From Candidatus Tumulicola sp. (GTDB taxonomy: Bacteria; Vulcanimicrobiota; Vulcanimicrobiia; Eremiobacterales; Eremiobacteraceae), in contig DATNNM010000008.1 in NCBI GenBank assembly GCA_035601835.1, positions 1-64,000 on the forward strand: a stretch of DNA of 64,000 nt, in the 5' to 3' direction. Under the pieces are notes generated by a model, which did not search any database, was not told the origin of the DNA, and saw only the letters and a program-made list of their open reading frames with translations. Of this stretch, positions 30,442-47,912 are shown in pieces. Numbering within the stretch: the first letter of the stretch is position 1; each line of letters opens with the position of its first letter. A program made the position numbers and the translations under genes.

Positions 30442-30517
30442 CACTCGTGCTTCACAGTGCGGGTCGCGCCGCTCCTGCATCGAGGGATGCACCGGCGCAC
30501 GGCAGAACCACGCGCGG

Positions 30518-30979
30518 ATGAAAAAACGCGCTGTGCGGTCTGCCGTGGTGCTTCACGGTCCCAATCTCAATGCGTTGGGAAAGCGCGAGCCTGACGTGTA
30601 CGGCTCGATGACGCTGCGCCAGGTGGACGATGCGATCCGCGCGCTTGCCAAGCAGCTCAAGATCAGCGTGAGCATCGCGCAGCATTCTGGCGAAGGCGCT
30701 CTCATCGACGCCATTCACGCGGCGGGCGCGCGGGGAAGCGCGATCGTGATCAATCCCGGTGCGTTCGCGCACTACTCGTACGCATTGCGAGACGCGCTGG
30801 CGTCCGTCGACGTTCCCAAGGTCGAAGTGCACCTCTCGAATGTTCACGCGCGCGAGCCGTTTCGCCGTCGTTCGGTCATCGCACCGGTGGTGAATGGCAC
30901 CGTCGGCGGTTTCGGCGTGGATTCCTACCTCTTGGCATTGCGAGGAGTAGCCGCAATGCTTGATGACACAAGGGCTTGA
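30518..30979 (+). CDS. aroQ: 3-dehydroquinate dehydratase, type II
   Basis: 153 residues. Third step of the shikimate pathway. Signatures: LHGPNLNALGKREPDVYG (with the catalytic Tyr), QHSGEGALIDAIHAA, INPGAFAHYSYALRDAL (catalytic His) and EVHLSNVHAREPFRRRSV. Standard length. Stands apart from other aro genes; hup follows 127 bases downstream. Confidence 0.95.
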   Translation: MKKRAVRSAVVLHGPNLNALGKREPDVYGSMTLRQVDDAIRALAKQLKISVSIAQHSGEGALIDAIHAAGARGSAIVINPGAFAHYSYALRDALASVDVPKVEVHLSNVHAREPFRRRSVIAPVVNGTVGGFGVDSYLLALRGVAAMLDDTRA

Positions 30980-31106
30980 CGCGCTTTCGGGCAGGAATCA
31001 CCCGCCAGCGAGGGAAGAGGCCTGCTTCGAGCACGACGTCGACGCGAGCGCCAAAGCATGCTTCGCGTGGCACGAATTTGTTCGTCCGCCGAATTGGAGG
31101 TTCCCG

Positions 31107-31394
31107 ATGACCAAAGCCGAGCTGATCGAGGAAGTTGCAGCCGAGACCAAACTCACCAAACGCGATGTGACCATGGTCGTAGATACGTTGTTGGAAAGCA
31201 TCAAATCGGCTCTTCAGAAGGGCGATAAGGTCCAGCTCATTCCTTTCGGCAGTTTCGAGACGCGCAAGCGCAAAGCGCGCGAGGGCCGCAACCCGAAAAC
31301 GGGCGAGAAGCTGACCATCTCGGCGCGCACCGTGCCGGCATTCCATCCGGGTAAGGACCTGCGCGAGAGCGTCAACAAGGGCAAGAAGAAGTAG
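31107..31394 (+). CDS. hup: DNA-binding protein HU
   Basis: 95 residues from ATG 31107, with GGAGG six bases upstream. MTKAELIEEVAAETKLTKRD and the arm GREGRNPKTGEKL-type sequence (REGRNPKTGEKLTISARTVPAFHPGK) identify HU, a nucleoid protein that bends DNA non-specifically. The Lys-rich tail NKGKKK is slightly longer than in E. coli HU. Confidence 0.95.
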   Translation: MTKAELIEEVAAETKLTKRDVTMVVDTLLESIKSALQKGDKVQLIPFGSFETRKRKAREGRNPKTGEKLTISARTVPAFHPGKDLRESVNKGKKK

Positions 31395-31489
31395 TTCAAC
31401 CACCCCTTCGCTTATTTAGGGCGTAAGGATTCGGGCAAGCGGCGCAGAAGTAGATAAGAGCACACGTAGGGGTTTGGAGTTCATGCAAC

Positions 31490-32182
31490 TTGGCCGCAAG
31501 GCAATCTCGAAGCGACGCGATCGCGCGTTGCCCGATCTTCTCCGGTCTCGGTAAGCGCCTACTCTCACATATCGCAGCTGCCGCGACTGAGCGTTACCTT
31601 GCGCCAAATCAGCAGCTCAGCGCGCAGGGCGAGCCATTCGCATACCTCGGCGTCGTCGCGCGGGGATCCGTGCTCGGGATCGTTTCGTCCAAAGACGGCC
31701 GCGACCAGATACTGTATGAGGCCGGGTTTGGCGAATCGTTTGGCGAGACGCTCGTGTTCGGAGGCGAAGCAAGCCTAGGACGCTCCGCCGCCGGCGCGCG
31801 TGGTGCGGTTGTGGTGCTGATCGCAAACGCGACCCTCGAGAAAGCCTGTGGAGCAAACCCCGTGCTCGGACTTCAGTTGGCTCGCGCAATCGCGCAACGC
31901 GCGCAGATCGTCGCAAACGGTTTAGCGAGTCTCGCATTCACATCGACCAAGGAGCGCGTCGCGCGCGCTATCCTAGCGCTGGTGCGAAGCGTGGAAGATG
32001 ACTGGATGGACGCCCCCGCCGAGCTGCGTGAACTCTCGCAGACTCAACTGGCCGAGCGGTCCGGAACCGTGCGCGTCGTGGTGGCGCGCGCCTTGCGCTC
32101 GTTGGAAGAGGCCAACGCGATCGAGCTCGAACGCGGGCGTATCAAGCGGCTCAACGCAGCCGCTCTGGCACGCCGGGTGTGA
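31490..32182 (+). CDS. Crp/Fnr-family transcriptional regulator (paralogue 1)
   Basis: 230 residues from TTG 31490 (the ATG at 31483 is out of frame). It has an N-terminal cyclic-nucleotide-binding-type beta barrel (SAQGEPFAYLGVVARGSVLGIV) with no clear cAMP phosphate-binding arginine motif. The C-terminal winged helix contains LSQTQLAERSGTVRVVVARALRSLEEANAI. It shares the opening SDAIARCPIFSGLGKRLL with the gene at 35102, so the two are paralogues. Ligand unknown. Confidence 0.85.
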   Translation: MAARQSRSDAIARCPIFSGLGKRLLSHIAAAATERYLAPNQQLSAQGEPFAYLGVVARGSVLGIVSSKDGRDQILYEAGFGESFGETLVFGGEASLGRSAAGARGAVVVLIANATLEKACGANPVLGLQLARAIAQRAQIVANGLASLAFTSTKERVARAILALVRSVEDDWMDAPAELRELSQTQLAERSGTVRVVVARALRSLEEANAIELERGRIKRLNAAALARRV

Positions 32183-32270
32183 CCAAAGTATCAGGTTAAG
32201 CCCTTCCTACGGTGCTACTATAGAGGCACCAAGCGGGGCCTTGCTGGGCTCCCAGGGTTCAGGCAGGCGT

Positions 32271-32298
32271 TTGGCGACCCCATAGACGTGGGTAGAAT
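32271..32298 (+). promoter_or_regulatory. Putative promoter of the barrel-protein gene
   Basis: TTGGCG (32271-32276), a 16-base spacer and TAGAAT (32293-32298), placed about 38 bases before the GTG start at 32336. Assigned by eye. Confidence 0.4.
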
Positions 32299-32335
32299 TC
32301 CTTCATACATTGGCGTCCGATCGAATTTGTGAACG

Positions 32336-33631
32336 GTGGCAATTGTGACTAGACTTGCGGGCCAACGGCCCAACACCCCCAGCGCGGCAACCGCGCCGCG
32401 CTTGGCAGCGGCCTCGGTTCTCGTTCTGCTTCTGTGCGGCTTCGCGTCCGTCGCGAATGCGGCTGCCGCCGACTTCGGTGCGCCGCCCTCCGGCGAGATA
32501 CCGATCCTCTATAACGACCACCACGTCTACGCCAAGCCCGACGAACTCAAGCAGAATCGCGTTCTCGCCGCTTTCGTGAAGAACGGCGTGATCATGGTTC
32601 CGCTGCGCAGCATGTTCGAGCAGATGGGCGCGACGGTTTCGTGGAACGCCGCGAGCAAGACCGCCACGGCGCAAAAACCGGGCGCGTCGGTGCAGGTCAC
32701 GGTCGGCAAGAACGAAGCCGTGATCAATGGAGAGACGCGACCGCTTGACGTTCCGCCTGAGATCTATCAGGGCGTGGTCGTCGTGCCGATACGCGTGATG
32801 TCTGAGTCCCTCGGCGCGTACGTGCAATGGATTCCCGGCCGGCGCATCGCCATCGTGCGGTACATCCCGCCGACTCCGATCCCGCTGCCTCCGCCGACGA
32901 TAGCGCCGACCCCGCCGCCGACCCCGACACCGACGCCGACCCCGACGCCGGCACCGCAGGGCTATACCGTCTTCGTCCAAGGCGCGTACGCTTGGTCCAA
33001 GGTTTACAACGAGTTCGCGGACCGCCAGTGCTGCCGATCGTGGGTGGGGAGCGCAGCGCTTGCGCCAGAAAACTCAGTATGGGCCCTTAAAGTCGACTAT
33101 CGCCAAGACACGTACGTCACGAGCGATAACATCGTCAACCCGCTCGGCAACCACTATACGAGTTTCTTCACCATCGACGGCGGCACCGCGGTCACGCCCG
33201 TTTTTCAGGCGCGCCAGAGCAACTGGGATGGGCGCTTGGAGTTCAAGGTAGCGTCGCCGCGGGTCTACATCGGAGCTGGTTACATCCAGAACTCCAACAA
33301 CTTCGGATATCCGCATTGGAGCGGCATCGGCGGCGGACTCGAGAAGCTGCCCGACCTAAAGTCGGGGATCGGTTGGTTCGGCTCCGCGTTCTACTATCCG
33401 AGCGCGAGCGGCAACTATACGGTCAACGACCCAGCCAGTTCGAATTTCGGCAAGACCTATCGAGAACAGTACCAGATCGTGAAGTACGATATCGGCCTCG
33501 ACCTCTCTTCGGCTCGTTTCCCATTGTATCTCTACGGTGGTTTCAGTGGCGATCGGTTTGTCGCGAAGCAGAACGCACCAATCGCCCAGACGCATAGCGG
33601 CCCTTACCTCGGCCTCGGCGTGAAGTTCTAG
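32336..33631 (+). CDS. Copper-amine-oxidase-N domain fused to outer-membrane-barrel-like domain
   Basis: 431 residues, GTG start. A signal peptide (about 1-43, ending SVANA) leads into a copper amine oxidase N-terminal-like domain (about 50-175; VMVPLRSMFEQMGATVSWN, VVVPIRVMSESLGAYVQW). This fold is often a cell-surface anchor. A Pro/Thr linker (176-208) and a beta-rich domain (about 210-431) with alternating strands follow. The protein ends YLGLGVKF, a C-terminal Phe typical of outer-membrane barrels. The chain suggests a diderm surface protein tied to the cell wall. Export and barrel are inferred. Confidence 0.72.
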   Translation: MAIVTRLAGQRPNTPSAATAPRLAAASVLVLLLCGFASVANAAAADFGAPPSGEIPILYNDHHVYAKPDELKQNRVLAAFVKNGVIMVPLRSMFEQMGATVSWNAASKTATAQKPGASVQVTVGKNEAVINGETRPLDVPPEIYQGVVVVPIRVMSESLGAYVQWIPGRRIAIVRYIPPTPIPLPPPTIAPTPPPTPTPTPTPTPAPQGYTVFVQGAYAWSKVYNEFADRQCCRSWVGSAALAPENSVWALKVDYRQDTYVTSDNIVNPLGNHYTSFFTIDGGTAVTPVFQARQSNWDGRLEFKVASPRVYIGAGYIQNSNNFGYPHWSGIGGGLEKLPDLKSGIGWFGSAFYYPSASGNYTVNDPASSNFGKTYREQYQIVKYDIGLDLSSARFPLYLYGGFSGDRFVAKQNAPIAQTHSGPYLGLGVKF

Positions 33632-33652
33632 GCGGTCGGGAGGACCGTGAAT

Positions 33653-34420
33653 ATGCTCAAGACAACGCGCTTCTTCCACGCTCGGCTGATCGCCGTGCTA
33701 GTGGCCATAGCGTACCTGACCGGGTGCGGCACTAATTGCGCCGTTCCAGCCTTTAATTCCGCGCTGCCGTCCGGCACGGCATCGTGCACGACAAACGGAC
33801 AAACGGGAGTGCCCCTTGGAACGGCCGCCAACTTCGCGGTGCTGGGCGGCTCCACGGTCACGAACACCGGCACTCCGACCATCGTGAGCGGCGAACTCGG
33901 GGTGTGGGCGGGCTCGGCGGTCACCGGATTCCCGCCGGGGCTGGTGGTCAACGGTTCGATACACCGCGCTGATCCTACCGCGATGACGGCTCAAGGCGAT
34001 TTGACCACCGCGTACGTCAACGCGATGAACCGCGTGGTTCCGGCCCCGACCATCGTGAGCGGGGATATCGGCGGTTCGACCCTCACGCCCGGCATCTACA
34101 AGTCGACGTCGAGTCTGGGGCTCACAGGGACCGTCACGTTGGACGGGCAGAACCTGGTCAACCCCGTCTTTATCTTCCAGATCGGGTCCACCCTGACTAC
34201 GGCGACCGATAGCATCGTCAGGCTGATCAACGGCGCCAACGCGTGCAACGTCACCTGGCAGCTCGGCAGCGCCGGAATCTTTGGAACGCGCACGGCTTTC
34301 TTTGGAAATGTTCTGGCGCAATCATCGATCACATTCAACACCGGCGCGACGATCACAGGCAGAGCACTGGCACGTGACGGTGCGGTGACGTTAGACGATA
34401 ATCTTGTCACTAGGCCGTAG
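33653..34420 (+). CDS. Lipoprotein with ice-binding-protein-like (DUF3494) domain
   Basis: 255 residues from ATG 33653 (in-frame GTG 33647 just upstream). A lipoprotein signal ends at the lipobox LTGC. The rest resembles DUF3494 beta-helix proteins: LGTAANFAVLGGSTVTNTGTPTIVSGELGV, DLTTAYVNAM, GTVTLDGQNLVNPVFIFQIGSTL, FFGNVLAQSSITFNTGATITGRALA. In this family some members bind ice and others are adhesins. It follows the barrel gene by 21 bases and is probably co-transcribed. Confidence 0.8.
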   Translation: MLKTTRFFHARLIAVLVAIAYLTGCGTNCAVPAFNSALPSGTASCTTNGQTGVPLGTAANFAVLGGSTVTNTGTPTIVSGELGVWAGSAVTGFPPGLVVNGSIHRADPTAMTAQGDLTTAYVNAMNRVVPAPTIVSGDIGGSTLTPGIYKSTSSLGLTGTVTLDGQNLVNPVFIFQIGSTLTTATDSIVRLINGANACNVTWQLGSAGIFGTRTAFFGNVLAQSSITFNTGATITGRALARDGAVTLDDNLVTRP

Positions 34421-34448
34421 GAACTGACGACCAACAACCCGGGATAAA

Positions 34449-35018
34449 CTAGGTCTTGGAAAGCAGGCGTGCCGCTGAGCGGCGCGCCTGTTTCGCATAC
34501 GCCGCCGAACCCTCGATGTTGCACATGACCTCAGCCCCGGCCGTCAGGATCATGAGGGAGCGAGCTAGATCGGCTCGATTCGGCACGCCGGCATCCGTAG
34601 CCAGTTCGGTGAAGTAAGCGTGAAGCTGTCGCTTATTCTCGCTGACCTCATTGTGTATCGGGTGCTTTTGGTCGGGATACTCGGCCGCCGCTCGGTGAAA
34701 GGGGCATCCCCGATAGTCTTCTGACTCGAACCATTCGGCCAGCACGTCGAACACGGCCAGCAAACGCTGCTTCGGCGTGCGCCCGAGCTGCTTCACGCGT
34801 TCCTTGAGCCAAGCCATCCATCGTTTGCTGCGCTCGCGGACATAGGCGGCGCTCAGGTGCTCTTTCGTCGGAAAGTGCTTGTAGAAGGTCATCTTGGCGA
34901 CGCCCGCACGCTCGATGATCGTCTCAGCGCTCACCCCACGAATGCCGTCGAAGTTGAAGCTTTCGAGCGCAGCGTCCATGATTCGCCGCTGGGCGGCAGA
35001 GGGTTCTTCTCGTCCCAT
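34449..35018 (-). CDS. TetR-family transcriptional repressor
   Basis: 189 residues. The N-terminal helix-turn-helix (IMDAALESFNFDGIRGVSAETIIERAGVAKMTFYKHFPTKEHL) is classical TetR. The C-terminal ligand domain includes GCPFHRAAAEYPDQKHPIH. It is divergent from the Crp-type gene at 35102; the 83-base gap holds three palindromes suited as operators. No ribosome site fits in front of its ATG, which lies at the predicted transcription start, so a leaderless mRNA is likely. Confidence 0.88.
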   Translation of the reverse strand: MGREEPSAAQRRIMDAALESFNFDGIRGVSAETIIERAGVAKMTFYKHFPTKEHLSAAYVRERSKRWMAWLKERVKQLGRTPKQRLLAVFDVLAEWFESEDYRGCPFHRAAAEYPDQKHPIHNEVSENKRQLHAYFTELATDAGVPNRADLARSLMILTAGAEVMCNIEGSAAYAKQARRSAARLLSKT

Positions 35019-35025
35019 GTTGCTG

Positions 35026-35089
35026 AGCGTACCAGTACGTCTATTGTCATGTCAAGGCCTTGACAACAAGACGGACTAGTCCGTATACT
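35026..35089. promoter_or_regulatory. Symmetric divergent promoter with nested palindromes
   Basis: Centre: TGTCAAGGCCTTGACA (35050-35065), a perfect 16-bp palindrome whose two halves are back-to-back TTGACA -35 elements. Rightward: TTGACA (35060-35065), 18 bases, TATACT (35084-35089), with the perfect 14-bp palindrome ACGGACTAGTCCGT (35071-35084) in the spacer. Leftward: TTGACA, 18 bases, weak TACGCT (35031-35026), with inverted repeat CGTAC-CA-GTACG (35028-35039) in the spacer. Spacer palindromes are good operator candidates for the TetR protein. Confidence 0.7.
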
Positions 35090-35101
35090 TACGGGCATTA
35101 C

Positions 35102-35800
35102 ATGGTTCGTGACGCGGAACAGCGACGGGCGGACGCCATCGCGCGCTGCCCCTTGTTTGCCGGGATCGGCAAACGGCTGCTTGCTCGCCTCGCCGGCGCG
35201 GCGATCGAGAGCCGCGTTGGCCCGAACGAGACGTTCGCCCCGCAGGGCCAGCCGTTCCCGTTTCTAGGCGTCGTTGCGGAAGGCGCGGTGGTCGCGATCA
35301 TCTCGTCGCGAGATGGGCGCGAACAGATGCTGTACCAATCTGTGCCCGACGAGACATTCGCGGAGGTTCCCTCCCTTGACGGCAGGGTGACCTTATATCG
35401 CTTTGCGGCCGGCGCGCGCGGGGCATTGAGTCTTCTGATTCCGAGACTTGCGCTCGAGGAGGCATGCGAAGCGAGCGCGGAGCTCGGGCTTCGGTTGGGG
35501 CGAGTGGTGAGCGAGCGCGCGCGGATCCTAGCGGATTGTCTCACACACCTCGCGTTCGAGACGACCTTGGAGCGGATCACGCGCGCGATCCGCTCGTACA
35601 TCCCGCGCGAGGCCGCCGGTTGGGTGGACGCTTCCCCCGAGCTGAAGGGCCTCTCACAAAATCAACTGGCCGAGCTGAGCGGCACCGTCCGCATCGTGGT
35701 CGCACGCGCGCTGCGCTCGCTGGCCGCGGCTAACGTGATCGAGCTCGACGGCGGTCGCATCAAGCGCGTCAACGCGGACACCCTCGCACACCAATCTTGA
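35102..35800 (+). CDS. Crp/Fnr-family transcriptional regulator (paralogue 2)
   Basis: 232 residues from ATG 35102, about five bases after the predicted transcription start and with no ribosome site, so probably leaderless. The sensor barrel (FAPQGQPFPFLGVVAEGAVVAII) and HTH (LSQNQLAELSGTVRIVVARALRSLAAANVIEL) align along their whole length with the regulator at 31490. It has extra acidic changes in the sensor domain. Shares its promoter region with the TetR gene, which may repress both. Confidence 0.87.
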   Translation: MVRDAEQRRADAIARCPLFAGIGKRLLARLAGAAIESRVGPNETFAPQGQPFPFLGVVAEGAVVAIISSRDGREQMLYQSVPDETFAEVPSLDGRVTLYRFAAGARGALSLLIPRLALEEACEASAELGLRLGRVVSERARILADCLTHLAFETTLERITRAIRSYIPREAAGWVDASPELKGLSQNQLAELSGTVRIVVARALRSLAAANVIELDGGRIKRVNADTLAHQS

Positions 35801-35852
35801 CTTCTTAGGCGGCCAGGTGCCCCCTCGCGCGCCGCCCAATCCACGGCAGCAT

Positions 35853-36332
35853 ATGCGCAAGGTCAACACCAAGGACATCACTGAGGATACCTGGACATCC
35901 CCAAAGGGAAAATTCAGCGGCGCCGGCATTGGGGTCTCTGAGGCCCTGGGGCGTAAGCCGAAGTCCACGGACCTCATGGAGCGTCATCCGTTTGACGTCG
36001 AGATCCTCCGCGTCGCTCCGGGGAAAACACCCTACCCCTATCACTCGCATAGCGCTCAGTGGGAGTTCTACCACGTGATTTCGGGCAAGGGCACTGCCCG
36101 GCACGAGGGCGGTACGACCCCGATCGAGGCCGGCGACGCATTCATCTTCGAGCCCGGCCAAGCGCATCAGTTCAAAAATGACGGTTCTGAAGACTTGGTG
36201 ATCTACGTCGTGGCGGACAATCCGATCGGCGAATCGGTGTATTATCCCGACAGCAAGAAGTGGGGCGTGCGTTCACCCGAGCGCAGGCTGATCCGCTCCG
36301 ATGCGCTTGATTACTTCGATGGCGAAGAGTAA
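35853..36332 (+). CDS. Cupin-domain protein
   Basis: 159 residues from ATG 35853 (GTG 35817 is an in-frame alternative). A single cupin: motif 1 PYPYHSHSAQWEFYHVISGKG gives two His and a Glu as metal ligands. Motif 2 PIEAGDAFIFEPGQAHQFKND supplies the last His. Substrate unknown; similar small cupins are sugar- or metabolite-binding sensors or isomerases. It follows the Crp-type gene by 52 bases. Confidence 0.8.
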   Translation: MRKVNTKDITEDTWTSPKGKFSGAGIGVSEALGRKPKSTDLMERHPFDVEILRVAPGKTPYPYHSHSAQWEFYHVISGKGTARHEGGTTPIEAGDAFIFEPGQAHQFKNDGSEDLVIYVVADNPIGESVYYPDSKKWGVRSPERRLIRSDALDYFDGEE

Positions 36333-36351
36333 ATCATATAGCCACGTGATC

Positions 36352-36378
36352 GTAGCCACGGACCTTTAGGTCCGTGCC
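36352..36378 (+). repeat. Stem-variant hairpin repeat (TAG-CCACGGACC-TTTA-GGTCCGTG)
   Basis: GTAGCCACGGACC, loop TTTA, GGTCCGTGCC: same layout as the TGTAG repeat (GTAG lead, 8-bp stem, TTTA loop) but a different, fully compensated stem. Lies between the cupin gene and tRNA-Pro. Confidence 0.7.
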
Positions 36379-36425
36379 TCAAAGGTGAGCGTCCGAAAGC
36401 GCAGGAACCCCAAGTGCCAGAAGAT

Positions 36426-36500
36426 CGGGCCGTAGCGTAGCTTGGTTATCGCGCCTGACTGGGGGTCAGGAGATCGCTGGTTCGAATCCAGTCGGCCCGA
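36426..36500 (+). tRNA. trnP: tRNA-Pro (anticodon GGG)
   Basis: A 75-base cloverleaf. CGGGCCG pairs with CGGCCCG, the anticodon stem CCTGA/TCAGG holds the loop CTGGGGG (anticodon GGG), and the T-loop is TTCGAAT. The 3' CCA is not encoded. Its 3' 45 bases from 36459 recur exactly at 37102-37146, the mark of integration into the tRNA 3' end. Confidence 0.94.
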
Positions 36501-36564
36501 AAGCAACGCTCCAACCCCAACCCCGACTCCAACGCCTCACGGTCACCACTAAGAGACTATTGTC

Positions 36565-37078
36565 ATGCGAATTCTAGGTCGCCTCGCCATTGCGGCAATT
36601 AGTCTTTTGGCATGCGGTTGCAGTCAACAATCACGCAGCGTCGCGTCAACAACGCCAAGTGCAGCGCCCAAACTCGCGGTTAGTGCATTACCCGCAGATC
36701 TCGGACTTTGGTATTCCACTCCCCGCGGGATTGATTACCGACAGTCGAATTGATTCTCACATTCCAGCCGGCGTGCCGCCGATTGACCGCCTTGTAATTC
36801 GAAAGGCGATGGCCATCTTGCCCGCCGACAAGCGCCAGAACATCGTATGGTTTCGCGTGCCCCCGGGGCGCCCCGGTTATGAGGAGCTTCCCAATCACGG
36901 GCTTGTGGTGGAGTACAACGCCGATATGGCGGTCGATCTGAAGCGGAACCTTTCCTTGCCCTTCGATGGCTACTACGTCTTGTATTACGATGGCCGTGTT
37001 CAACCTGACTCAAGTCTGATTTTTTCTCGCTATTTGAACAGATATTTGACCGTGGCTTCCAGCAGTAGAGGGCACTAG
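36565..37078 (+). pseudogene. Frameshifted lipoprotein gene inside the islet
   Basis: The frame from ATG 36565 encodes a lipoprotein signal (MRILGRLAIAAISLLACGCS, lipobox LLAC) but stops at 36753. The +1-shifted frame continues without stop to 37078 with well-ordered sequence (DFGIPLPAGLITDSRIDSH, RQNIVWFRVPPGRPGYEELP, DGYYVLYYDGRV). The two look like one protein of about 170 residues split by an indel between about 36690 and 36750. No family recognised. Alternatively, two overlapping genes or a sequencing error. Confidence 0.5.
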
Positions 37079-37101
37079 CTGACAGACATGGCAAAATCGT
37101 C

Positions 37102-37146
37102 CTGGGGGTCAGGAGATCGCTGGTTCGAATCCAGTCGGCCCGAAAG
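37102..37146 (+). repeat. Duplicated 3' end of tRNA-Pro (att-like direct repeat)
   Basis: Exact 45-base copy of 36459-36503, including the anticodon loop, T-arm and acceptor 3' strand. The bases preceding it (AAAATCGTC) do not continue the tRNA, so it is only a 3' half and not a functional tRNA. Confidence 0.93.
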
Positions 37147-37151
37147 AAAAG

Positions 37152-37182
37152 ACCCGCATTCCAAGAGGCATGCGGGTTTGTC
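37152..37182 (+). terminator. Rho-independent terminator
   Basis: ACCCGCAT, a 10-base loop, ATGCGGGT, then TTGT. It directly follows the duplicated tRNA 3' half, so it is likely the original tRNA-Pro terminator separated from the tRNA by the islet. Confidence 0.7.
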
Positions 37183-37272
37183 GTTAGCGATGATTCGCAA
37201 ATGAGAACTCCGCTGGGGGACCGAACCCGCTCTTGAAATGGGAGCGTCGGTTCATTCGGCGGGTATTGGACA

Positions 37273-37845
37273 TTGAGCCTAGAGGTTTGGAGCACGGTGG
37301 CGGCCGTCGGCACGTTCCTCGTCATCGCCGTAACGGCGATCGCGGCGCTGGCGCAGTTGCGGCACATGGGGTCGCGCAACCAGCTCGAAGCGGTGCTGTC
37401 GCTCAACCAAGAGTTTCGCAGCCAGGAGCTTCAGGACGCGTTGCGTTTCATTCAAAAGGACCTGCCGTCAAAGATGGAAGACCCGGCGTTCCGCGCGGAA
37501 CTGGGGTCGCGGGGTTTCATCGATGCGTCGGTTCATCAGGAGATGAGCGCCTGTAACTGGTTCAACGAAATGGGCACGCTGGTCAAACACGGACTGGTCG
37601 ACGAGCGGACCTTCTTGGATCTTTACGGCCGGCTGGCAGCTCAATATTGGGATCTCCTTAGCCCCGCGATAGCCATCTTGCGGCGAAACCGCGGGTCCGG
37701 CCAATATCAGAATTTCGAATACCTGGCGATTCGATCGCGTGATTGGCTTGCGCGATATCCGGATGGGCATTTCCCCGGCGCAATCTCTAGACTTCGCACT
37801 GACGACGTCTGGTTGGTTCACGATGGACAACGCCCGCCGAAGTAA
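37273..37845 (+). CDS. Single-pass membrane protein (DUF4760-like)
   Basis: 190 residues from TTG 37273. One N-terminal transmembrane helix (about 5-27, VWSTVAAVGTFLVIAVTAIAALAQL) precedes a helical cytoplasmic domain (HMGSRNQLEAVLSLNQEFRSQEL, CNWFNEMGTLVKHGLVDERTFLDLYG, WDLLSPAIAILRR). The pattern resembles DUF4760-type proteins of unknown function. It overlaps the start of the cyclase/ATPase gene by 23 bases, suggesting coupling. Confidence 0.6.
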   Translation: MSLEVWSTVAAVGTFLVIAVTAIAALAQLRHMGSRNQLEAVLSLNQEFRSQELQDALRFIQKDLPSKMEDPAFRAELGSRGFIDASVHQEMSACNWFNEMGTLVKHGLVDERTFLDLYGRLAAQYWDLLSPAIAILRRNRGSGQYQNFEYLAIRSRDWLARYPDGHFPGAISRLRTDDVWLVHDGQRPPK

Positions 37846-39817
37846 ACCTAAGGCTCGAGTAGCTGCCACGCTGAAGTCGCTGCCTACCGGCACGGTCACC
37901 TTCCTGTTCACCGACATCGAGGGCAGCACGGAGCGCTGGGAGCGCGATTCCAAGGCGATGAGCGCCGCGGTGGCGCGCCACGACGCGCTGTTGCGAGCGG
38001 CCATCGAGTCGCATGGCGGCTACGTGTTCAAGACCGTGGGCGATGCTTTTTGTTCGGTCTTTCAAGACGCGCGCGAGGCGCTGACGTCGGCGCTCGACGG
38101 CCAGCGCGCGCTCGCGGAGACCGACTTTGCGGCCGTGGGTGGGCTCAAGGTGCGCATGGCGCTGCATACCGGGTTTGCGGACGAGCGCGACGGCGACTAC
38201 TTCGGCTCGACGGTCAACCGCACGGCGCGGCTGCTGGACATAGGTCATGGCGGTCAAGTATTGGTTTCGGACGTGACAGCGGATCTAGTGCGCGATGCGC
38301 TGCCAAAAACGGCAGCGCTGCACGAGCTGGGCGCCCACCGCCTCAAGGACCTGACCGCACCCGAACACGTGCATCAGCTCGTCGCGTCGGGGCTGACCGC
38401 GAAATTCCCGCTGCTGCGCTCGCTGGACACCCTGCGAAACAATCTGCCGCAGCAGCTCACGTCCCTCATCGGCCGAGATCAAGAAGTTGCCCAAATCGCG
38501 GAGCTGCTGGACGAGCACCGGTCCATCACGCTGACCGGCGTCGGCGGCGTGGGCAAGACTCGGCTTGCCTTGCAAGCCGGCGCGGAGCTCGCCGATCGGT
38601 TTGAGGACGGAGTGTGGTTCATCGACCTTGCTTTGCTGGCCGATTCCGATCTCATAGCCGGCGCGATCGCGGCTCTGTTCGGCGTGCGCGAGTCTCCCGG
38701 CCAGTCGTCGCTCGAAGCGATCGGACATGCGCTCAAGCCCAAACGCATGCTGCTGATCTTGGATGACTGCGAGCATGTCATCGCGGTCGCCGCCAAAGTC
38801 GCCGAGGCGCTGTTACGCACGTGTCCGCAGGTCCGGATTCTGGCGACGAGTCGCGAGCCGCTGCATATCCAAGGCGAGCGCATCGTGCCCGTGTCGACCT
38901 TGTCGACTCCCGAGAGCACGGAAGGCTTGACCGTGGCTCGCGCGCTAGAGCATGCGGCTGTCGCGCTGTTCGTCCAGCGCGCCGCCGCCTCCGACAGCCG
39001 CTTTAGCCTGACCGACGCCAACGTAGCCGGCGTCGGCGAGATCAGCCGCCGGTTGGACGGCATCCCACTGGCGCTCGAGTTGGCGGCTGCGCGGGTGCGG
39101 GCGCTTGGCGTCAGCCATCTATCGGAACACTTGGCTCAACGCTTTCGGCTCTTGACCGGCGGCGGACGCACCGCGCCGGCTCGCCACCAAACGCTTCGAG
39201 CCGCTATCGACTGGAGTTATAATCTTTTGTCGGATGCCGAAAGATTGCTGTTTTGCCGTCTGGGGATATTTGCAGGCGGGTTCGATCTGGAAGCTGCGAC
39301 TGCGGTGTGCGCCGCAAAGCCGATCGAAGAGTTCGAGGTCGTCGATCTGCTGTCGTCGCTGGTCGATAAATCGTTGGTGATGCCCGACTTCGGCCATGAG
39401 ATGAGATACCGGTTGCTGGAGTCGACGCGCGCCTATGCCCTGGAACGGATGGACGAGGAGGGGGTGCGCGAAAGCACATGCGAGCGACATTGTCGCTATT
39501 TTGCCGAAATCGCCAAGAAACTGTGCGATGCGCTCCCGACGACGAATCTCAATCCCTGGCTTGCGCGGATCCGCGCCAATCTGGAGAACTATCGCGCGGC
39601 GCTGGAGTGGGCACTCGGCCGAGGCCGCGACTCAGCCCTCGGCGCCGAACTCGCCTGCGGGTTGGAGACGTTCTGGTGGCATGGCGGCAGCGAAGCAGAG
39701 GGGCGGCGCTGGATCAAGGCGGCGCTCGATCACGTCGATGAAGGCGCTTACCCTGAGGTAACCGTTCGGCTCCGGCGGGTCCTCGCGCGCCTCACCGCAC
39801 GAGTCCTTTACTCATGA
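37823..39817 (+). CDS. Class III adenylate cyclase-like domain fused to NB-ARC ATPase, C-terminally truncated
   Basis: 664 residues from ATG 37823. The cyclase homology domain (about 22-190) has VTFLFTDIEGSTERWE, TVGDAFCSVF and GSTVNRTARLLDIGHGGQVLVS. The NB-ARC/AAA module has the P-loop GVGGVGKT (239-246), LLILDDCEH, ATSREPL and RLDGIPLALELAAAR, then a winged helix. Relatives usually continue with several hundred residues of TPR repeats. Here the protein stops after one or two (ending VLARLTARVLYS), so the 3' part seems lost. Probably a signal-dependent regulator; ligand unknown. Confidence 0.8.
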   Translation: MDNARRSKPKARVAATLKSLPTGTVTFLFTDIEGSTERWERDSKAMSAAVARHDALLRAAIESHGGYVFKTVGDAFCSVFQDAREALTSALDGQRALAETDFAAVGGLKVRMALHTGFADERDGDYFGSTVNRTARLLDIGHGGQVLVSDVTADLVRDALPKTAALHELGAHRLKDLTAPEHVHQLVASGLTAKFPLLRSLDTLRNNLPQQLTSLIGRDQEVAQIAELLDEHRSITLTGVGGVGKTRLALQAGAELADRFEDGVWFIDLALLADSDLIAGAIAALFGVRESPGQSSLEAIGHALKPKRMLLILDDCEHVIAVAAKVAEALLRTCPQVRILATSREPLHIQGERIVPVSTLSTPESTEGLTVARALEHAAVALFVQRAAASDSRFSLTDANVAGVGEISRRLDGIPLALELAAARVRALGVSHLSEHLAQRFRLLTGGGRTAPARHQTLRAAIDWSYNLLSDAERLLFCRLGIFAGGFDLEAATAVCAAKPIEEFEVVDLLSSLVDKSLVMPDFGHEMRYRLLESTRAYALERMDEEGVRESTCERHCRYFAEIAKKLCDALPTTNLNPWLARIRANLENYRAALEWALGRGRDSALGAELACGLETFWWHGGSEAEGRRWIKAALDHVDEGAYPEVTVRLRRVLARLTARVLYS

Positions 39818-39877
39818 CGAGAAGGTAACGGCACATGCTTTGCGTACCTATCGGTCAAGAATCCCGGAGGAACTCAC

Positions 39878-40150
39878 ATGCCGCGATATATGATCGAACG
39901 AATCTTTAAAGACGGCCTGGCGATTCCGACCAACGACAGCGGATCCGAAGCATGTAAGGCCGTCGTCGGCAAGAATGAAACCGTCGGCGTGACCTGGGTG
40001 CATTCGTACGTCTCGAACGACCACAAGAAGACGTACTGCGTGTACGACGGACCGAACGAAGAGGCCATCCGCCAGGCCGCCGAACGCAACGGCCTACCAT
40101 GCGACAAGATCACGGAGGTCAGCGTTCTCGACCCGTATTTCTATCACTGA
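39878..40150 (+). CDS. DUF4242-family small protein
   Basis: 90 residues from ATG 39878, with GGAGG upstream. MPRYMIERIFKDGL, GVTWVHSYVSNDHKKTYCVYDGPNEEAIRQAAERNGLP and DPYFYH match the DUF4242 family (ferredoxin-like fold; one Streptomyces member binds nickel). Intact and full length. Cargo of the stretch between the duplicated tRNA 3' end and the remnant at 40156. Confidence 0.85.
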   Translation: MPRYMIERIFKDGLAIPTNDSGSEACKAVVGKNETVGVTWVHSYVSNDHKKTYCVYDGPNEEAIRQAAERNGLPCDKITEVSVLDPYFYH

Positions 40151-40155
40151 CCCGC

Positions 40156-40166
40156 TCGGCCCGAAA
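40156..40166 (+). repeat. 11-bp remnant matching the tRNA-Pro 3' end
   Basis: TCGGCCCGAAA equals the acceptor end of tRNA-Pro plus the next bases (as at 36492-36502 and 37135-37145). Like the copy at 37102-37146, it is directly followed by a GCCCGCAT-type terminator hairpin. Short enough to be chance, but the shared context makes a third att remnant plausible. Confidence 0.4.
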
Positions 40167-40169
40167 CCC

Positions 40170-40205
40170 AAAAGCCCGCATCCAGTCCGAGTGCGGGCTT
40201 TTTGT
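40170..40205 (+). terminator. Rho-independent terminator
   Basis: AAAAGCCCGCA, an 11-base loop, TGCGGGCTTTTT: an 11-bp stem with a good U-tract, downstream of the DUF4242 gene. Strongest terminator in the window. Confidence 0.88.
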
Positions 40206-40228
40206 TTCTTAAAGCAGAAGCACGGCGC

Positions 40229-40987
40229 GTGCAATTCTGGACGGCCGCGCTGCCCGCGTTCTTGGCTTCCTCCGTCGAGTGCGTCGAGGCGCTGACGGTG
40301 GTGCTCGCGGTCGGCATCACGCGAGGCTGGCGCTCGGCGATCATCGGTTCCATCGCGGCGATCGCGTTGCTCGGGCTGCTCGTGTTGCTTTTCGGGCCGC
40401 TGCTGGACCGGTTCCCGATCGCGTGGCTGCAGATCGCCGTCGGTTGGCTGTTGATCCTCTTCGGGATGCGCTGGCTGCGCAAAGCCATACTGCGCGCCGG
40501 CGGCTTCATCAGCATGCACGACGAGTCGGACGCGTTCGAACAGCAGAAGCGAGGGTTGGGGGCCTCGAACGCACGGGGTCGGGGAGCCTTGGATCCCGTC
40601 GGTTTCCTTGCATCGTTCAAAGCCGTGACGCTCGAGGGCTTAGAAGTCGTGTTCATCGTGATCGCCATCGGCGCCACGGCGCACGCGCTCCTTCCGGCAA
40701 GCGCAGGCGCCGCGGCGGCCGGCGTGCTGGTCGTCGCTGCCGGGGTCATATTGCGCCGCCCGCTCGAGCGCGTGCCGGAGAACAGCCTCAAGTTCGCGGT
40801 GGGCGTCTTGCTCTCGGCTTTCGGCACGTTCTGGTTCGGCGAAGGTCTCGGCATGACGTGGATCGGTCAGGATCTTGCCATTCTCGGGCTCGTCATCGGC
40901 TATGCCTTCATATCGTTCGTCGCCGTTGCGCTGTGCCGGCGCGTGCATGCTCGGCCCGCGAGCGCAACGAGGGTGCCGCAGATATGA
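40229..40987 (+). CDS. Polytopic membrane protein with two ExxE motifs
   Basis: 252 residues from GTG 40229; an earlier in-frame TTG lies in the terminator. About seven membrane segments. Two equivalent helices carry acidic pairs: SSVECVEALTVVLAVG (near residue 10) and VTLEGLEVVFIVIAIG (near 142). The arrangement recalls internally duplicated transporters with REGLE-type motifs such as FTR1 iron permeases; direct homology is not shown. Overlaps a small membrane-protein gene as ATGA. Confidence 0.65.
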   Translation: MQFWTAALPAFLASSVECVEALTVVLAVGITRGWRSAIIGSIAAIALLGLLVLLFGPLLDRFPIAWLQIAVGWLLILFGMRWLRKAILRAGGFISMHDESDAFEQQKRGLGASNARGRGALDPVGFLASFKAVTLEGLEVVFIVIAIGATAHALLPASAGAAAAGVLVVAAGVILRRPLERVPENSLKFAVGVLLSAFGTFWFGEGLGMTWIGQDLAILGLVIGYAFISFVAVALCRRVHARPASATRVPQI

Positions 40988-41208
40988 CCTGGCTGGCGAG
41001 CGGTCTCAAGCAGGTCTATGGGCTGTTCGTCGACGACGGCTGGTTGTCGCTTGCGGTCTGTATCTGGTTGTTGATCGCATGGTTCGTCCTGCCGCACTTC
41101 GTCACCAGCGCGAGCACGCGCCCGATCGTCCTCTTCGTCGGCCTGGCGCTGCTCCTCGCTGACAGCGTGCGTCGGGGCGTGCTGCCTCACGGGCATGACG
41201 CCAAATGA
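40984..41208 (+). CDS. Small two-helix membrane protein
   Basis: 74 residues from ATG 40984, overlapping genes on both sides as ATGA. Two hydrophobic helices (about 18-38, WLSLAVCIWLLIAWFVLPHFV; about 46-62, RPIVLFVGLALLLADSV). It sits between two membrane-protein genes, suggesting a shared complex. No family recognised. Confidence 0.65.
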   Translation: MTWLASGLKQVYGLFVDDGWLSLAVCIWLLIAWFVLPHFVTSASTRPIVLFVGLALLLADSVRRGVLPHGHDAK

Positions 41209-41738
41209 ACGCGCTCAGCAGCGGTCTTTCCTCGATGCTCCCATCGCTCTCGGTGGTCACCGGCATGATCACCCCGGCGATCCTCATCCTGGCCGCCGGC
41301 TCGCTCGTCTCGAGCACGCTCGTGCGCATCGGCCGCATCGTCGATCAGACGCGCGGGCTCATCGCACGCGGCGAGGAGCTGCGCCGCATCGGCAAACGTG
41401 CCGCGCTGCCGCTCATCGACGAGCAGCTCACGATTCTGCTGCGCCGCGCCGACCTTGCTCGCAGCGCGCTCACGGGATTCTACCTCGCGATCGCGCTCTT
41501 CTTGCTCTCGAGTCTGGCGATCGCGCTGACACTGCTGTTACACAGCCCACTCACGTGGCTTGGGCCTGCGTTTGTCATCCTCGGCGGCGTCTGCCTGTTC
41601 GCGGCTGCGGCTGTGCTGCTGTTCGAGGTGAATCTATCGGGCGGTTCCACGCGCCGCGAAGTGGATTGGTACCGCACCGGCGCCTTCGACGAGAATACCA
41701 CTACGACAGGATCTTCACCACCGGCGTCATCACGTTGA
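41205..41738 (+). CDS. DUF2721-family membrane protein
   Basis: 177 residues from ATG 41205. Begins LSVVTGMITPAILILAAGSLVSSTLVRIGRIVDQTR, the DUF2721 signature. It is followed by an amphipathic loop rich in Arg and Glu, and two more membrane helices (about 88-110, 117-140). Function unknown. Its 3' end overlaps the convergent secreted-protein gene by 38 bases, so a downstream shared terminator is absent. Confidence 0.8.
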   Translation: MNALSSGLSSMLPSLSVVTGMITPAILILAAGSLVSSTLVRIGRIVDQTRGLIARGEELRRIGKRAALPLIDEQLTILLRRADLARSALTGFYLAIALFLLSSLAIALTLLLHSPLTWLGPAFVILGGVCLFAAAAVLLFEVNLSGGSTRREVDWYRTGAFDENTTTTGSSPPASSR

Positions 41739-42141
41739 CGGCGTGCACCGATAGCGCGCGTTGACTCGCGCTAAGGTACTTCGATTTTTGGAGCGGGCGC
41801 AAAGCGTCGAGGCCGGCGCTCCAAAGCTCTTTCACCTTGACGTTATGATGTAACTTCGCTTCGGCTTCGCCGGCGACGTACAGCGACTCGCCGTAGAAAT
41901 ACGAGTAACTCGCCTGCTTTGCAGGAGCGCCGGCCGCCTTGGCGTGTTGGGCGCAGGCGTAATAGCTGGTGGCGGCTTCCTGCATGTCAGCAGACGTGTA
42001 GATGTACCTGCCGGCCTGGTAATCGGTGGAGGCCTTCGCGAAAAGCGAATCGGCGTGTGCGCCGCACCCGGTAGCGGCCGCGCTCGGAGTAGACGGGAGC
42101 AGGCTAACAAGCACCATCGCCAGCAACAGCAATCGTTTCAT
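41701..42141 (-). CDS. Secreted protein of unknown function
   Basis: 146 residues from ATG 42141; a longer in-frame extension upstream lacks sense. A clear signal peptide (about 1-22, KRLLLLAMVLVSLLPSTPSAAA) leads into a helical region of TPR-like character (SLFAKASTDYQAGRYIYTSADMQEAATSYYACAQHAKAAG). Two Cys could form a disulphide. No family recognised. Confidence 0.65.
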   Translation of the reverse strand: MKRLLLLAMVLVSLLPSTPSAAATGCGAHADSLFAKASTDYQAGRYIYTSADMQEAATSYYACAQHAKAAGAPAKQASYSYFYGESLYVAGEAEAKLHHNVKVKELWSAGLDALRPLQKSKYLSASQRALSVHAVNVMTPVVKILS

Positions 42142-42229
42142 GTCGCAAGAATAACATGCTTGGCCGCGAGACCACAAGTGACGGGCGACGACCAAAGGAT
42201 AGGCGACCCGAACTTCCGGCTGGAACAAG

Positions 42230-45200
42230 GTGGCGCTCGCTGACTCGGAACGGAGCCGTCTCATAGACTACAGCATCGCGCCCGATCTTTGGACCACGCT
42301 CGGCGGCGTTTTCGCGCTGAAGGGGCAGGCTTTTGCCCACAGCGTCGTGCTGAAGCACGCGCCGGTGATCGCCCTCGCCATCATCTTGGCTGCGGGATTG
42401 TCGTCTGCGGTCGGCCAGAGCATCGTACTTTTCGCCAATCGGGTCAAGCTTGGCCGTTTCGTTTTCTGCCTGCTGATCAATGCTTTGCTCTTCGCATTCG
42501 GCTATGCGTTCCTGACCCTGTCAACATGGGTGATCACATGGCTGCGCGGCACGCATCTCTCGCTCGCCACGCTTTGGATCGTGTTGGCGCTCAGCTACGC
42601 ACCGCTGCTGTTCTCGTTCCTGGAAGCGATGCCATATGCGGGCATCGTCATCACGTGGGCGCTGCGCGTATGGTCGTTGCTTGCTGCGATCGTCGGCCTC
42701 TCTGCAGTAGGACATATGCCGGTAGCGGAGGCGTTCTTACTCGTCGGGCTTGGTTGGCTGGGGCTTGGCATCGCGCAGCAGACGGTCGGCAAGCCGATCG
42801 CCGCGCTTGGCGCGCGACTGTTGGACATCGTGGCGGGCGCGCCGGTGGACACGGACGAGCAAGAGGCTATAGACCGCGTGCAAGCCCCCGCGATCGCCGC
42901 CGCGGGCTCCATCACGCCACCTGCGGTCTCCGACGCGCCAATCGTGGTGGAACCGCATCACGGGGTGCTCGCGCCGGGCGCCGGTTTAAGCGCGATCGTC
43001 GGCGTGGTCGTCGCGCTCGTCGTCGCCGTGCTCTTGGTGCTCGCGATAGCGCCGGCGCAAAGAGCGCTCTTCGCCTGGCATGACAGCGTTTCGGCGTGGG
43101 CGCGCTGGCCGATCGACCTCGTGTGGATCGCCATGTTCGCCATCATCATCGCGGCCATGCTCGCGCCTCTGGAGACGCTCGGCTGGTGGGCGGGATGGTA
43201 CGGCGACGAGATAAAGCCCACGCCTGAAGCGCAAAAAAGCGGCAAAGCCGACGATCAAAAAGTATCGCGTTACATCGTCTACATGGACGGCATCGGACAG
43301 TCAAGCGGAAAATACACTCCCGACGTTGAGACGTTCCTGGACGCGCTCGCGCCGACGCTGCCCAAGCGCACGCGACTCATCCGAGGGCTGATGGCGTACT
43401 CGGTGCTCAACCGGCCGCTCGACGATGATCCTGTGCTGGCCTGGTTCTGGAAGATCGTCGACGCGGTGCGGTTCAAGAGGCCCTCGAGCATCCTCGGCAT
43501 GATCGTCAACATCCGCAACGTCATGATCGTCGCGGTGTCGGCCGATTCACGCTACGGACCGATCTACAACTACGGCATCGCCAAGGTGCTCTACGACGGC
43601 CTCATCGCCAACGGCTACCGGCTGCGCAGCGGCGTGCCCGTCACGCTGATCGGCTATAGCGGCGGCGGACAGATGTCGGCCGCCTCCGCGGGATTCCTGA
43701 AGCGCGCGCTACAGGCGCCGATCGACGTCATTTCGCTCGGCGGCGTCATCAGCGGAAGCAGCCGCGTGCTGGACCTCGAGCATCTCTACCATCTGGTCGG
43801 CGACAAAGACGGCGTCGAGAAGCTCGGGCCCATCCTGTTCTGGTCGCGCTGGAAGATCTTTTGGCGGACGTACTGGAACCGCGCGAGACGGCTTGGACGC
43901 CTCACACGCACTTCGCTTGGACCGGTAGGCCATCAAGTGCCGGGCGGCATGTTCGATCCCAACGCTCGGCTGCCCGGCGGGCAGACCAATCTTCAGAACA
44001 CCGTCGCCGACATACAAAAGATCCTGCGCGGGCGCTTGGAGTCGAGCGGGCCGCGCGAGCCGCTGCGCCCGAGCAACTACGGATTGTATGTCAAGGCGGC
44101 GTGGAACCGGCCCGACTATTACCCGATCAGTGCCGGCGTTGATCCCGCGCGCTACCTGCCGCTCGCGGAATGGATGGGCAGACTCATCCTCCCGAAGCCC
44201 GACGAGCGCAGCGACGTGCAGGGGGCTTGGTTCGAAGTGCACCACGCGGATCAAGCGCACGCGCAACTGGTCGGCAAGACCGTCAAGCTGCGCTGGTCGG
44301 CCGATCCGCTCGTGCAACGCCGCGTGCGCGCGGTGACGCGCGACGTGTTCTTCAGCGCAGACGCCGATTATTCGCTGCGCCACAGCGGCTGGATCGAGCC
44401 CGTCCGCCTTGATCACCGTCAACTGGTCGATCCGCTCGAATCGCTCGCGGGCTCGCGGCCCAACGACGACGTCGTCGTGATGCTGATGGGGCCGGTCGAA
44501 GTGGCCGAAGAGGACGGCAGCACCGTCCTGCGCATCACCCGCGAGCCGGCGCAGATCGGCGGCCGCTATTACGGTTTGGTCCGTTTCGTCGAATCGGTCG
44601 GCGCGGACCGCTACCGCGTGGTTCATTTCAATCGCGCCACGCGCGCTTTTGACGGCCCCGATGAGATCGTCAGCGCGCCTCCCGCGGTGGCCGACACCGA
44701 CCGGCGGCCGCCGTCTTCGATGCAAGCGATTGAAAAGTCGCCGCTCAACGCGGACGGCTGGTACGTCTACGGCTCACCGGACGCGCAGGGCGTGTTCGTC
44801 GTGCAAGCGCTTGGGCCGCGGGCGCTGTTGCGCGCGCAGCCCGGGGGAACCGTTGCGGGTCGCGACGCGGCATGGCGCTTCGTGCGCAAGGAGGCATGGG
44901 GCGATATCGCGGCGCGAAAAGGGACGGCGAGTTCGACCTTCCTCAGCGGGGATGGCGGCGATGCCGCGAGCGCGGTGTGGAAGGAGGGCGATGCGGCGCT
45001 CCTGATCCACACCTATGGCGGCATCGGAGGCCGGTTGGGCGAGAAGGCCGCGTCAGGCCCTGTGTACTTCGGGCACTTCGCGTACGGCGAAGCTCGCATC
45101 GTGCACGATCCGCTCGCGGACGAGCCGCGCTTCGAAATCGTCTACTATCAGGTCTACTCGCACAACACCGACGGGCTCGTGGCGGGCACGCTGCACTGGT

Positions 45201-45826
45201 CGCGCTTCTTGGGCGATCGCCAGTTCGGCTGGGCTGGTGTGCGTCCGACCTGCGACATCCTGTTGCGTCACGACGCGTTCACCAGCGACTTCCAGCTCGA
45301 TCCTACGTGGAGCGCGTCAGTCCTGGGCATGCTCGGTTTGCAGCTTGAGGCGATGACCGCGCGCTATCGGATCGGCGACGGAACCGGTTGCACGTACGTC
45401 GGGCCCGCGAACAACTGCGCGCAGGACTCGAATCAGGCGCTCTTCGCGACGCTGCGCATGGTCAACCGGTTCGTCGAGGAGAATCCCGCTCAGGTGGCGT
45501 GGGCGACGCAGCATCCGGAGCAAGCGCAGCGTTACGAGCGGCTCAAGCTGCTGGAGAAGGATCTCGGCCGGCGCTTGAATCCGTTCGGTTCGCCGCGGCG
45601 CGACTGGAGCGCGAACGAATTCAATCTGGGCACGACCCTCGAGGACGCCCCGCTGCAGCAGCTGTGCCTGGGGCTGTCCAGTTGGCGCATGCTCTTGCCG
45701 CGCTACGCGAGCGACACGATCGTGGGCGCCTTCCTCGATCACGGCGCATCCGCGTGGGTGCTCAGCGCAGACGTGATCGGCGGCGAGCGGCCGGAGATCG
45801 AGCCCATAGCGCCGATGACGCTCTAG
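42230..45826 (+). CDS. Giant membrane protein with alpha/beta-hydrolase-type nucleophile motif
   Basis: 1198 residues, GTG start. The N-terminal block (about 45-200) has five or so membrane helices in a Yip1-like pattern, with two more helices at about 252-275 and 293-320. A soluble domain (about 345-520) follows, with RYIVYMDGIGQSSGKY and the nucleophile elbow LIGYSGGGQMSAAS (Ser477). A large C-terminal region (about 640-1198) includes GYIEPVRLDHR-like sheets and NNCAQDSNQALFATL. Cyanobacterial relatives are sometimes called Abi/CAAX-type proteases; I cannot confirm that. Monocistronic; function unknown, probably a membrane-tethered hydrolase. Confidence 0.6.
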   Translation: MALADSERSRLIDYSIAPDLWTTLGGVFALKGQAFAHSVVLKHAPVIALAIILAAGLSSAVGQSIVLFANRVKLGRFVFCLLINALLFAFGYAFLTLSTWVITWLRGTHLSLATLWIVLALSYAPLLFSFLEAMPYAGIVITWALRVWSLLAAIVGLSAVGHMPVAEAFLLVGLGWLGLGIAQQTVGKPIAALGARLLDIVAGAPVDTDEQEAIDRVQAPAIAAAGSITPPAVSDAPIVVEPHHGVLAPGAGLSAIVGVVVALVVAVLLVLAIAPAQRALFAWHDSVSAWARWPIDLVWIAMFAIIIAAMLAPLETLGWWAGWYGDEIKPTPEAQKSGKADDQKVSRYIVYMDGIGQSSGKYTPDVETFLDALAPTLPKRTRLIRGLMAYSVLNRPLDDDPVLAWFWKIVDAVRFKRPSSILGMIVNIRNVMIVAVSADSRYGPIYNYGIAKVLYDGLIANGYRLRSGVPVTLIGYSGGGQMSAASAGFLKRALQAPIDVISLGGVISGSSRVLDLEHLYHLVGDKDGVEKLGPILFWSRWKIFWRTYWNRARRLGRLTRTSLGPVGHQVPGGMFDPNARLPGGQTNLQNTVADIQKILRGRLESSGPREPLRPSNYGLYVKAAWNRPDYYPISAGVDPARYLPLAEWMGRLILPKPDERSDVQGAWFEVHHADQAHAQLVGKTVKLRWSADPLVQRRVRAVTRDVFFSADADYSLRHSGWIEPVRLDHRQLVDPLESLAGSRPNDDVVVMLMGPVEVAEEDGSTVLRITREPAQIGGRYYGLVRFVESVGADRYRVVHFNRATRAFDGPDEIVSAPPAVADTDRRPPSSMQAIEKSPLNADGWYVYGSPDAQGVFVVQALGPRALLRAQPGGTVAGRDAAWRFVRKEAWGDIAARKGTASSTFLSGDGGDAASAVWKEGDAALLIHTYGGIGGRLGEKAASGPVYFGHFAYGEARIVHDPLADEPRFEIVYYQVYSHNTDGLVAGTLHWSRFLGDRQFGWAGVRPTCDILLRHDAFTSDFQLDPTWSASVLGMLGLQLEAMTARYRIGDGTGCTYVGPANNCAQDSNQALFATLRMVNRFVEENPAQVAWATQHPEQAQRYERLKLLEKDLGRRLNPFGSPRRDWSANEFNLGTTLEDAPLQQLCLGLSSWRMLLPRYASDTIVGAFLDHGASAWVLSADVIGGERPEIEPIAPMTL

Positions 45827-45978
45827 CGTTCGAGCGCTCGAGAAAGCCGGAAGATTAAAAGTTGCAGCCGCCCTCGTGACCGGAGGCGGCCGCTTGGCGG
45901 CCCTGGAATTTTGCCGGCCGGGGACCACGTTTTCGGACTAAGGTGCCCCGCCCTCGCCATACATAGGGAGGTTATCGC

Positions 45979-47346
45979 ATGTATAGGGCGCTCTTATTGC
46001 TCGCGTGTTTTGTCGCGTTTAGTTTAGCGTTCTCGATGGGAGTTCCGTCGGCGGGCACCCCAACGCCGGTGGTAAAGCCGTGTGACGGTCCGTGTCACGG
46101 CGGACATCATCCGTTCCCGTCGAAGAAAATTCAGCACGTCATCATCATCTTCCAGGAGAACCGGACGCCGGACAACCTCTTCCAAGGTCTGCCCGGTGCC
46201 GACATCGCCAGCAGCGGGACCAATTCAAAGGGGGTAGTCATCAAATTGATGCCTCGGCCCCTGGCCAACCGGTTCGACCTCGACCACAGCCATCTGGCCT
46301 TTACGACCGAATACGACGGCGGCAAGATGGACGGCTGGGACAACGTGAAGATCCGCTGCCGCAAACCCTGTCGCCCGACCGCGTTCGGCTACACACCCAA
46401 AGCACAGATAATGCCGTACTGGCAGATGGCAACGACCTACACGTTCGGCGACCGCACCTTCCAAGACAACCAAGGCCCCAGTTTTCCCGCCCACCAGTTC
46501 CTCATCGCCGGGACTTCCACCGACTCGGTCGGCAGCAAATTGCTAGCCGCGGAAAATCCGCGCTACCCCGGGATGTCAGGTTGGGTCAGTAACGGGAAGA
46601 ACTGCGACGGGTCGCCCAAAGCGCAAGTCACCATGATCGATGCCCTTGGCAACGAGACCGTCGTGATGCGGCCATGCTTCGAGCACCCGACCATCATGGA
46701 TCTGCTTGACGCCAAAGGTGTTTCGTGGCGCTACTACGATGCCAACAACAATGGCTATTGGTCGGCCCCGGATGCCATCAAACATCTGCGCTACGGCTCG
46801 GATTGGACGAACGTCATCACCCCCGAGACGACCGTTCTCACGGACATCGCCGGCGGCAGCTTGCGACAGGTATCGTGGGTCAACCCCACGTGCGCGGAGT
46901 CCGATCATGCGAGTTGCAATACGGGCACCGGCCCGGCTTGGGTCGCGTCCATCGTCAACGCCGTGGGCGGCAGCAAGTACTGGAAGGACACGGCCATCTT
47001 CGTGACGTGGGACGATTGGGGCGGTTGGTTCGACCACGTGAAGCCGCCTGTTCGCAGCTCGTACGAACTCGGTTTCCGCGTTCCGCTCATCGTCATCTCG
47101 CCGTACGCGAAGCCGGCCCACATCTCGCACGTGCAGCACGAACAATCCAGCATCTTGAAGTTCGTCGAGACGAACTTCGGACTGGGATCGTTGGGTTATG
47201 CAGATGCGTTGTCGGACGACCTGTCGGACTGCTTCAACTACGGCCAGAAACCCCTCAAGTTCGCGATCATCCCGACCGGCTGGCGCACGGCAGACCTCAT
47301 GAGGTCCATACAAAAGTCGAGCGGGCCGGCGGACGACGACTTCTAG
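45979..47346 (+). CDS. Secreted phosphoesterase (phospholipase C / acid phosphatase family)
   Basis: 455 residues with a signal peptide (about 1-25). [22 protein letters not shown] is the phosphoesterase-family (PF04185-type) opening, where Glu-Asn and the nearby Thr take part in metal binding and catalysis. [21 protein letters not shown] and [17 protein letters not shown] supply further ligands. Cleaves phosphate esters or phospholipids outside the cytoplasm. Well-placed ribosome site GGGAGG. A terminator follows, so it is a single-gene unit. Confidence 0.88.
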
Positions 47347-47372
47347 ACAAACCCGATTAACTGGACGAAGAG

Positions 47373-47910: not shown

Positions 47911-47912
47911 AC

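Follow-up and report, generated by a model that had tools for sequence, protein, structure and literature searches.

A 643-bp islet between two copies of a tRNA-Pro 3' end in Candidatus Tumulicola: a probable CIME-like remnant of an integrated element

Cis-mobilizable elements (CIMEs) have lost the genes for integration and transfer and keep attL and attR (PMC5704250). Similarly, 15 islands located at ssrA in Dehalococcoides are without integration modules (PMC3146451). The published sizes of Islander-type islands in tRNA and tmRNA genes peak near 13.6 and 39.9 kbp, and a crossover subsite in the anticodon loop (A) has been described for tRNA islands (PMC4383910). In Pyrococcus yayanosii, integration of the element PYG1 leaves a tRNA fragment, with 44-bp repeats lying about 21 kb apart (PMC9897764). 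The locus described here lies in a window of 64,000 nucleotides, the whole stretch of DNA that was analysed, and comprises the following features:

30493..51893, no strand: variable zone around tRNA-Pro between family-conserved blocks (tblastn synteny)
36425..36501, forward strand: complete tRNA-Pro(GGG) (ARAGORN; Rfam tRNA match of 62 bits)
36459..36503, forward strand: attL-like copy, from the anticodon loop to just past the acceptor end (identical to 37102-37146)
36504..37101, no strand: islet interior, 598 bp, 54.7% G+C, without integrase (composition and integrase searches)
36565..37078, forward strand: frameshifted lipoprotein gene (one piece at 36565-36753, the other at about 36689-37078 in a different frame; alignment A1)
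37088..37098, forward strand: ATGGCAAAATC, inner flank of the right tRNA-Pro copy (the G095 element has the same bases, in register, at its right end)
37102..37146, forward strand: attR-like copy, the presumed displaced original tRNA-Pro 3' part (identity; degenerate-pattern match)
37150..37179, forward strand: hairpin terminator, displaced from tRNA-Pro (RNA fold -18.9 kcal/mol, z -4.4)

A preliminary description of this DNA had reported a 45-base repeat of the tRNA-Pro end (36459-36503 and 37102-37146) around less GC-rich DNA with one broken lipoprotein gene and no integrase, and a terminator displaced to 37152. Our analysis agrees on every one of these points. The two copies are identical at 45/45 positions with a spacing of 643 (47/48 if the repeat is extended). 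ARAGORN makes a single tRNA-Pro(ggg) call, at 36425-36501. A degenerate pattern of the 3' end matches exactly twice in the 64 kb, where no match is expected, and revealed no further decayed tRNA-Pro ends in the window; a search for this edge in the whole 2.57-Mb genome likewise found only the copies at 36459 and 37102. An ordinary array with a second tRNA pseudogene, which had been named as an alternative, does not fit the 598 bp of low-G+C, gene-containing DNA that separates the two copies. The locus thus has an intact tRNA and a cognate 3' fragment in the same orientation, as Islander islands do, and shares with them the regenerated tRNA, the displacement of the fragment and a crossover subsite in the anticodon loop (A) (PMC4383910). 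Unlike those islands, it has no integrase gene inside the interval and is tiny compared with the published size peaks. As with PYG1, a tRNA part of 44-45 bp persists at the far end in the form of a partial gene; here, however, the repeats are 643 bp apart rather than about 21 kb.

The interior has a G+C content of 54.7% vs 63.9% for the window, which places it among the lowest 0.16% of equal-sized stretches. Its sole gene encodes a lipoprotein with the lipobox ...LLACGC and is split by a frameshift. Tyrosine-integrase matches are absent from the entire contig carrying the islet, and the search for integrase similarity within the islet gave nothing convincing (best E 0.014). The hairpin at 37150-37179 lies beyond the second copy, and RNA folding found no comparable hairpin on the islet side of tRNA-Pro; in many relatives one sits directly after the tRNA. 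To the right of the islet, window positions 37273-37845 encode a DUF4760 protein, a domain present in 6-11 copies per genome in six clade genomes and in 0/14 control genomes. We considered this gene as element cargo and rejected it on account of those 6-11 family copies per genome.

We searched 117 genomes of the class with tRNA-Pro. Copies consisting of the 3' part only occur in ten of them (the source genome, G004, G005, G006, G026, G032, G058, G077, G095 and G105). They start at tRNA positions 31-35, and the nine other genomes with a duplicated end share the junction of the source genome, CTGGGGG. Tyrosine integrases adjoin tRNA-Pro in seven genomes (G005, G006, G009, G032, G034, G077 and G095). 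The G006 interval, of 5.7 kb, contains cellular-type genes; that of G032 is 16.5 kb long, holds a terminase small subunit and is phage-like. In G095 the interval measures 12.4 kb. The tRNA-Pro site is an insertion hotspot in this class. Duplication of the tRNA-Pro 3' part by ordinary illegitimate recombination, with no integrase involved, would account for an islet without integrase, and the cargo gene does have chromosomal paralogues away from tRNAs. However, this process would hardly produce an identical cut point in ten genomes that span several genera and differ in their contents, with integrases at the site, nor does it fit the low-G+C interior and the displaced terminator; we regard it as very improbable.

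Two further arrangements were seen at this site. In G005 (L038, contig C11, about 36102-49215), the complete tRNA is preceded, at a distance of 11.8 kb, by a 5' half of tRNA-Pro; one integrase ends 18 bp before tRNA-Pro and another is located downstream, so that this tRNA is apparently used from both sides. In G095, an element whose integrase is intact has, just past its attR, a broken integrase remnant (L170, C4:31291-31452), an older decayed neighbour.

The intact G095 element, which carries a 410-aa integrase beside tRNA-Pro, has the 11-nt ATGGCAAAATC at its right end in the same register as the islet. Only these 2 of the 117 genomes have it so placed. A run of this kind shared with any of the nine other ends arose in 12 of 200,000 shuffles, a figure for a match that was noticed after the fact. 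G077 does not have it although its integrase is 64% identical to that of G095, and we found no internal homology between the islet and the G095 element. The match hints at a common origin but does not prove it.

Family-conserved blocks flank the locus, the left one ending at about 30492 and the right one starting at about 51894 (tblastn), and the zone between them varies in length on both sides of tRNA-Pro. This conserved gene order shows the locus to be orthologous within the family. There, G003 (both flanks conserved) and G011 (right flank) have a single tRNA-Pro copy, and the end is duplicated in G004 and G005 (right flank) and in G006 (left flank). Presence thus varies within a single locus, which is what insertion would lead one to expect. 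The preliminary description had suggested looking for an empty site and would have given up the insertion if all relatives were arranged alike; G003 and G011, family-level relatives and none of the same genus, have the single copy. A same-genus empty site was sought through the neighbouring cupin gene, and tRNA-Pro adjoined 0 of 80 such loci. An artefact or chimera in the assembly of this probably metagenome-derived genome deserves hardly any credence. The genome is in 18 contigs and misjoins can happen at repeats; however, 45 bp is short for such a misjoin, the same structure recurs in independent assemblies, and the regions to the left and right are both syntenic with the same locus in relatives. 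The proposed insertion into the tRNA 3' end is supported by the shared cut in ten genomes, the integrases beside it in seven, the single-copy relatives and the displaced terminator.

The islet is probably what remains, in CIME-like form, of an element that had integrated into the tRNA and then lost its integrase. A tyrosine-integrase element would have entered tRNA-Pro(GGG) by recombination at the anticodon loop and brought a replacement 3' part that kept the tRNA intact, so that the 3' part of the present gene would be element-derived. The original 3' part and the terminator would have been pushed to the far end of the element. A deletion beginning just past the regenerated tRNA-Pro may then have removed the integrase and most of the remainder, leaving one cargo lipoprotein gene, frameshifted later, between two intact attachment-site halves that might still be usable. 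We can only infer the former integrase, because no remnant of one is left in the islet.

Other tRNAs of the source genome bear on this loss. When 44 tRNAs of this genome were scanned, region by region, for near-complete duplicated 3' parts outside other tRNAs, three had one: tRNA-Pro, tRNA-Gly(ccc) and tRNA-Val(gac). The Gly islet (G000:C18:154400-156933, L187) measures 2414 bp and contains a 61-aa integrase C-terminus facing the tRNA. Two similar units, 5588 bp and 4206 bp long, stand in tandem at tRNA-Val (G000:C18:188825-198700, L063); the integrases in this tandem are truncated, and it also has long repeat-type ORFs. The genome itself thus shows a decay series, from the truncated integrases at Val through the 61-aa stump at Gly to the tRNA-Pro islet with none. 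An intact integrase was also seen adjoining a low-scoring tRNA-SeC call (G000:C11:184542-185876, L060).

The preliminary description had left open whether the element was decayed or mobilised in trans. Its origin as an element stands, and decay is favoured over mobilisation in trans because of the island series, in which integrase loss is caught part-way. It is possible, though unlikely, that the islet never encoded an integrase and consists of att halves around one cargo gene, moved by the integrase of another element. The lipoprotein gene does fill almost the whole 643-bp unit (about 60 bp before it, 24 bp after), and in two relatives tRNA-Glu ends bound the stretches that contain homologous genes. 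The genome also has an intact integrase (C11:281222-282352) that is 41% identical to the G005 tRNA-Pro enzyme; this relationship, however, is only distant. Moreover, no second copy of the 643-bp unit turned up in the genome, a check that had been proposed at the outset, and the islet ends were not found in viral contigs. Among plasmids, only three records matched, over about 60 bp at the tRNA end. Some points count against decay: the 45/45 identity of the right copy despite the absence of an integrase suggests a young insertion, so that decay would have had to be quick unless a single deletion brought it about, and the comparison, made with family-level relatives, lacks a clean same-genus pair from before and after insertion.

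Strong matches to the lipoprotein are restricted to this taxonomic family, namely the source genome (three loci, one paralogue being intact), G012, G007 and G010; this count of six loci leaves out four further weak matches in the class. The paralogue comparison gave a dN/dS of 0.33, so the family has been under constraint over most of its divergence. Homologues in viral contigs, phages, PDB, Pfam, NCBIfam and PHROGs were absent or only weak and below the cut-off, and the predicted fold (mean pLDDT 61) has no PDB match at E<=0.001. The G012 gene is located downstream of tRNA-Glu(ctc), and a second copy of the 3' end of this tRNA, 90% identical, occurs 1790 bp further along. A sister genome of G012 (L156) has different DNA at that tRNA: homology between L156:3286-5480 and L068:3166-6165 breaks at the end of tRNA-Glu(ctc) and resumes before a cupin gene. 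In G007, about 440 bp separate the gene from tRNA-Glu(ttc), and an 82% copy of the tRNA end follows 5742 bp on. Three of the six loci are thus less than 900 bp downstream of a tRNA with a duplicated 3' part, more than chance would give (binomial P about 4e-5, a post hoc value from few loci and with a distance chosen afterwards). The recurrence of this orphan lipoprotein beside duplicated tRNA ends suggests a preferred cargo. It would be a bolder, and improbable, reading that this clade-restricted gene is a minimal cargo travelling between tRNA genes, a tRNA-based analogue of single-gene cassettes: each unit would have nothing but tRNA 3' halves as its ends and would depend for its movement on the integrases of resident elements.

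Taken as a decayed element, the islet resembles CIMEs and the ssrA islands of Dehalococcoides in keeping attL and attR, in having no integration or transfer genes (only the broken lipoprotein gene) and in lying at a site where related elements occur in complete form. Possible descent from such an element has in its favour that relatives carry elements with integrases at this tRNA and that the 11-nt flank is shared with G095, and against it the missing internal homology with the G095 element. CIMEs are usually far larger than 643 bp. Unlike them, the islet has one broken gene in its 643 bp, and no accretion with a functional element was seen. Judged by its sequence, it fits the structural part of the CIME description, with att function and cis-mobilisation both putative. 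The phenomenon is familiar, and the islet is a very small example of it, extreme in size. Island finders that require an integrase would miss stumps of this kind. The tRNA-Pro locus allows states of a mobile element that range from complete to almost lost to be compared within one bacterial class.
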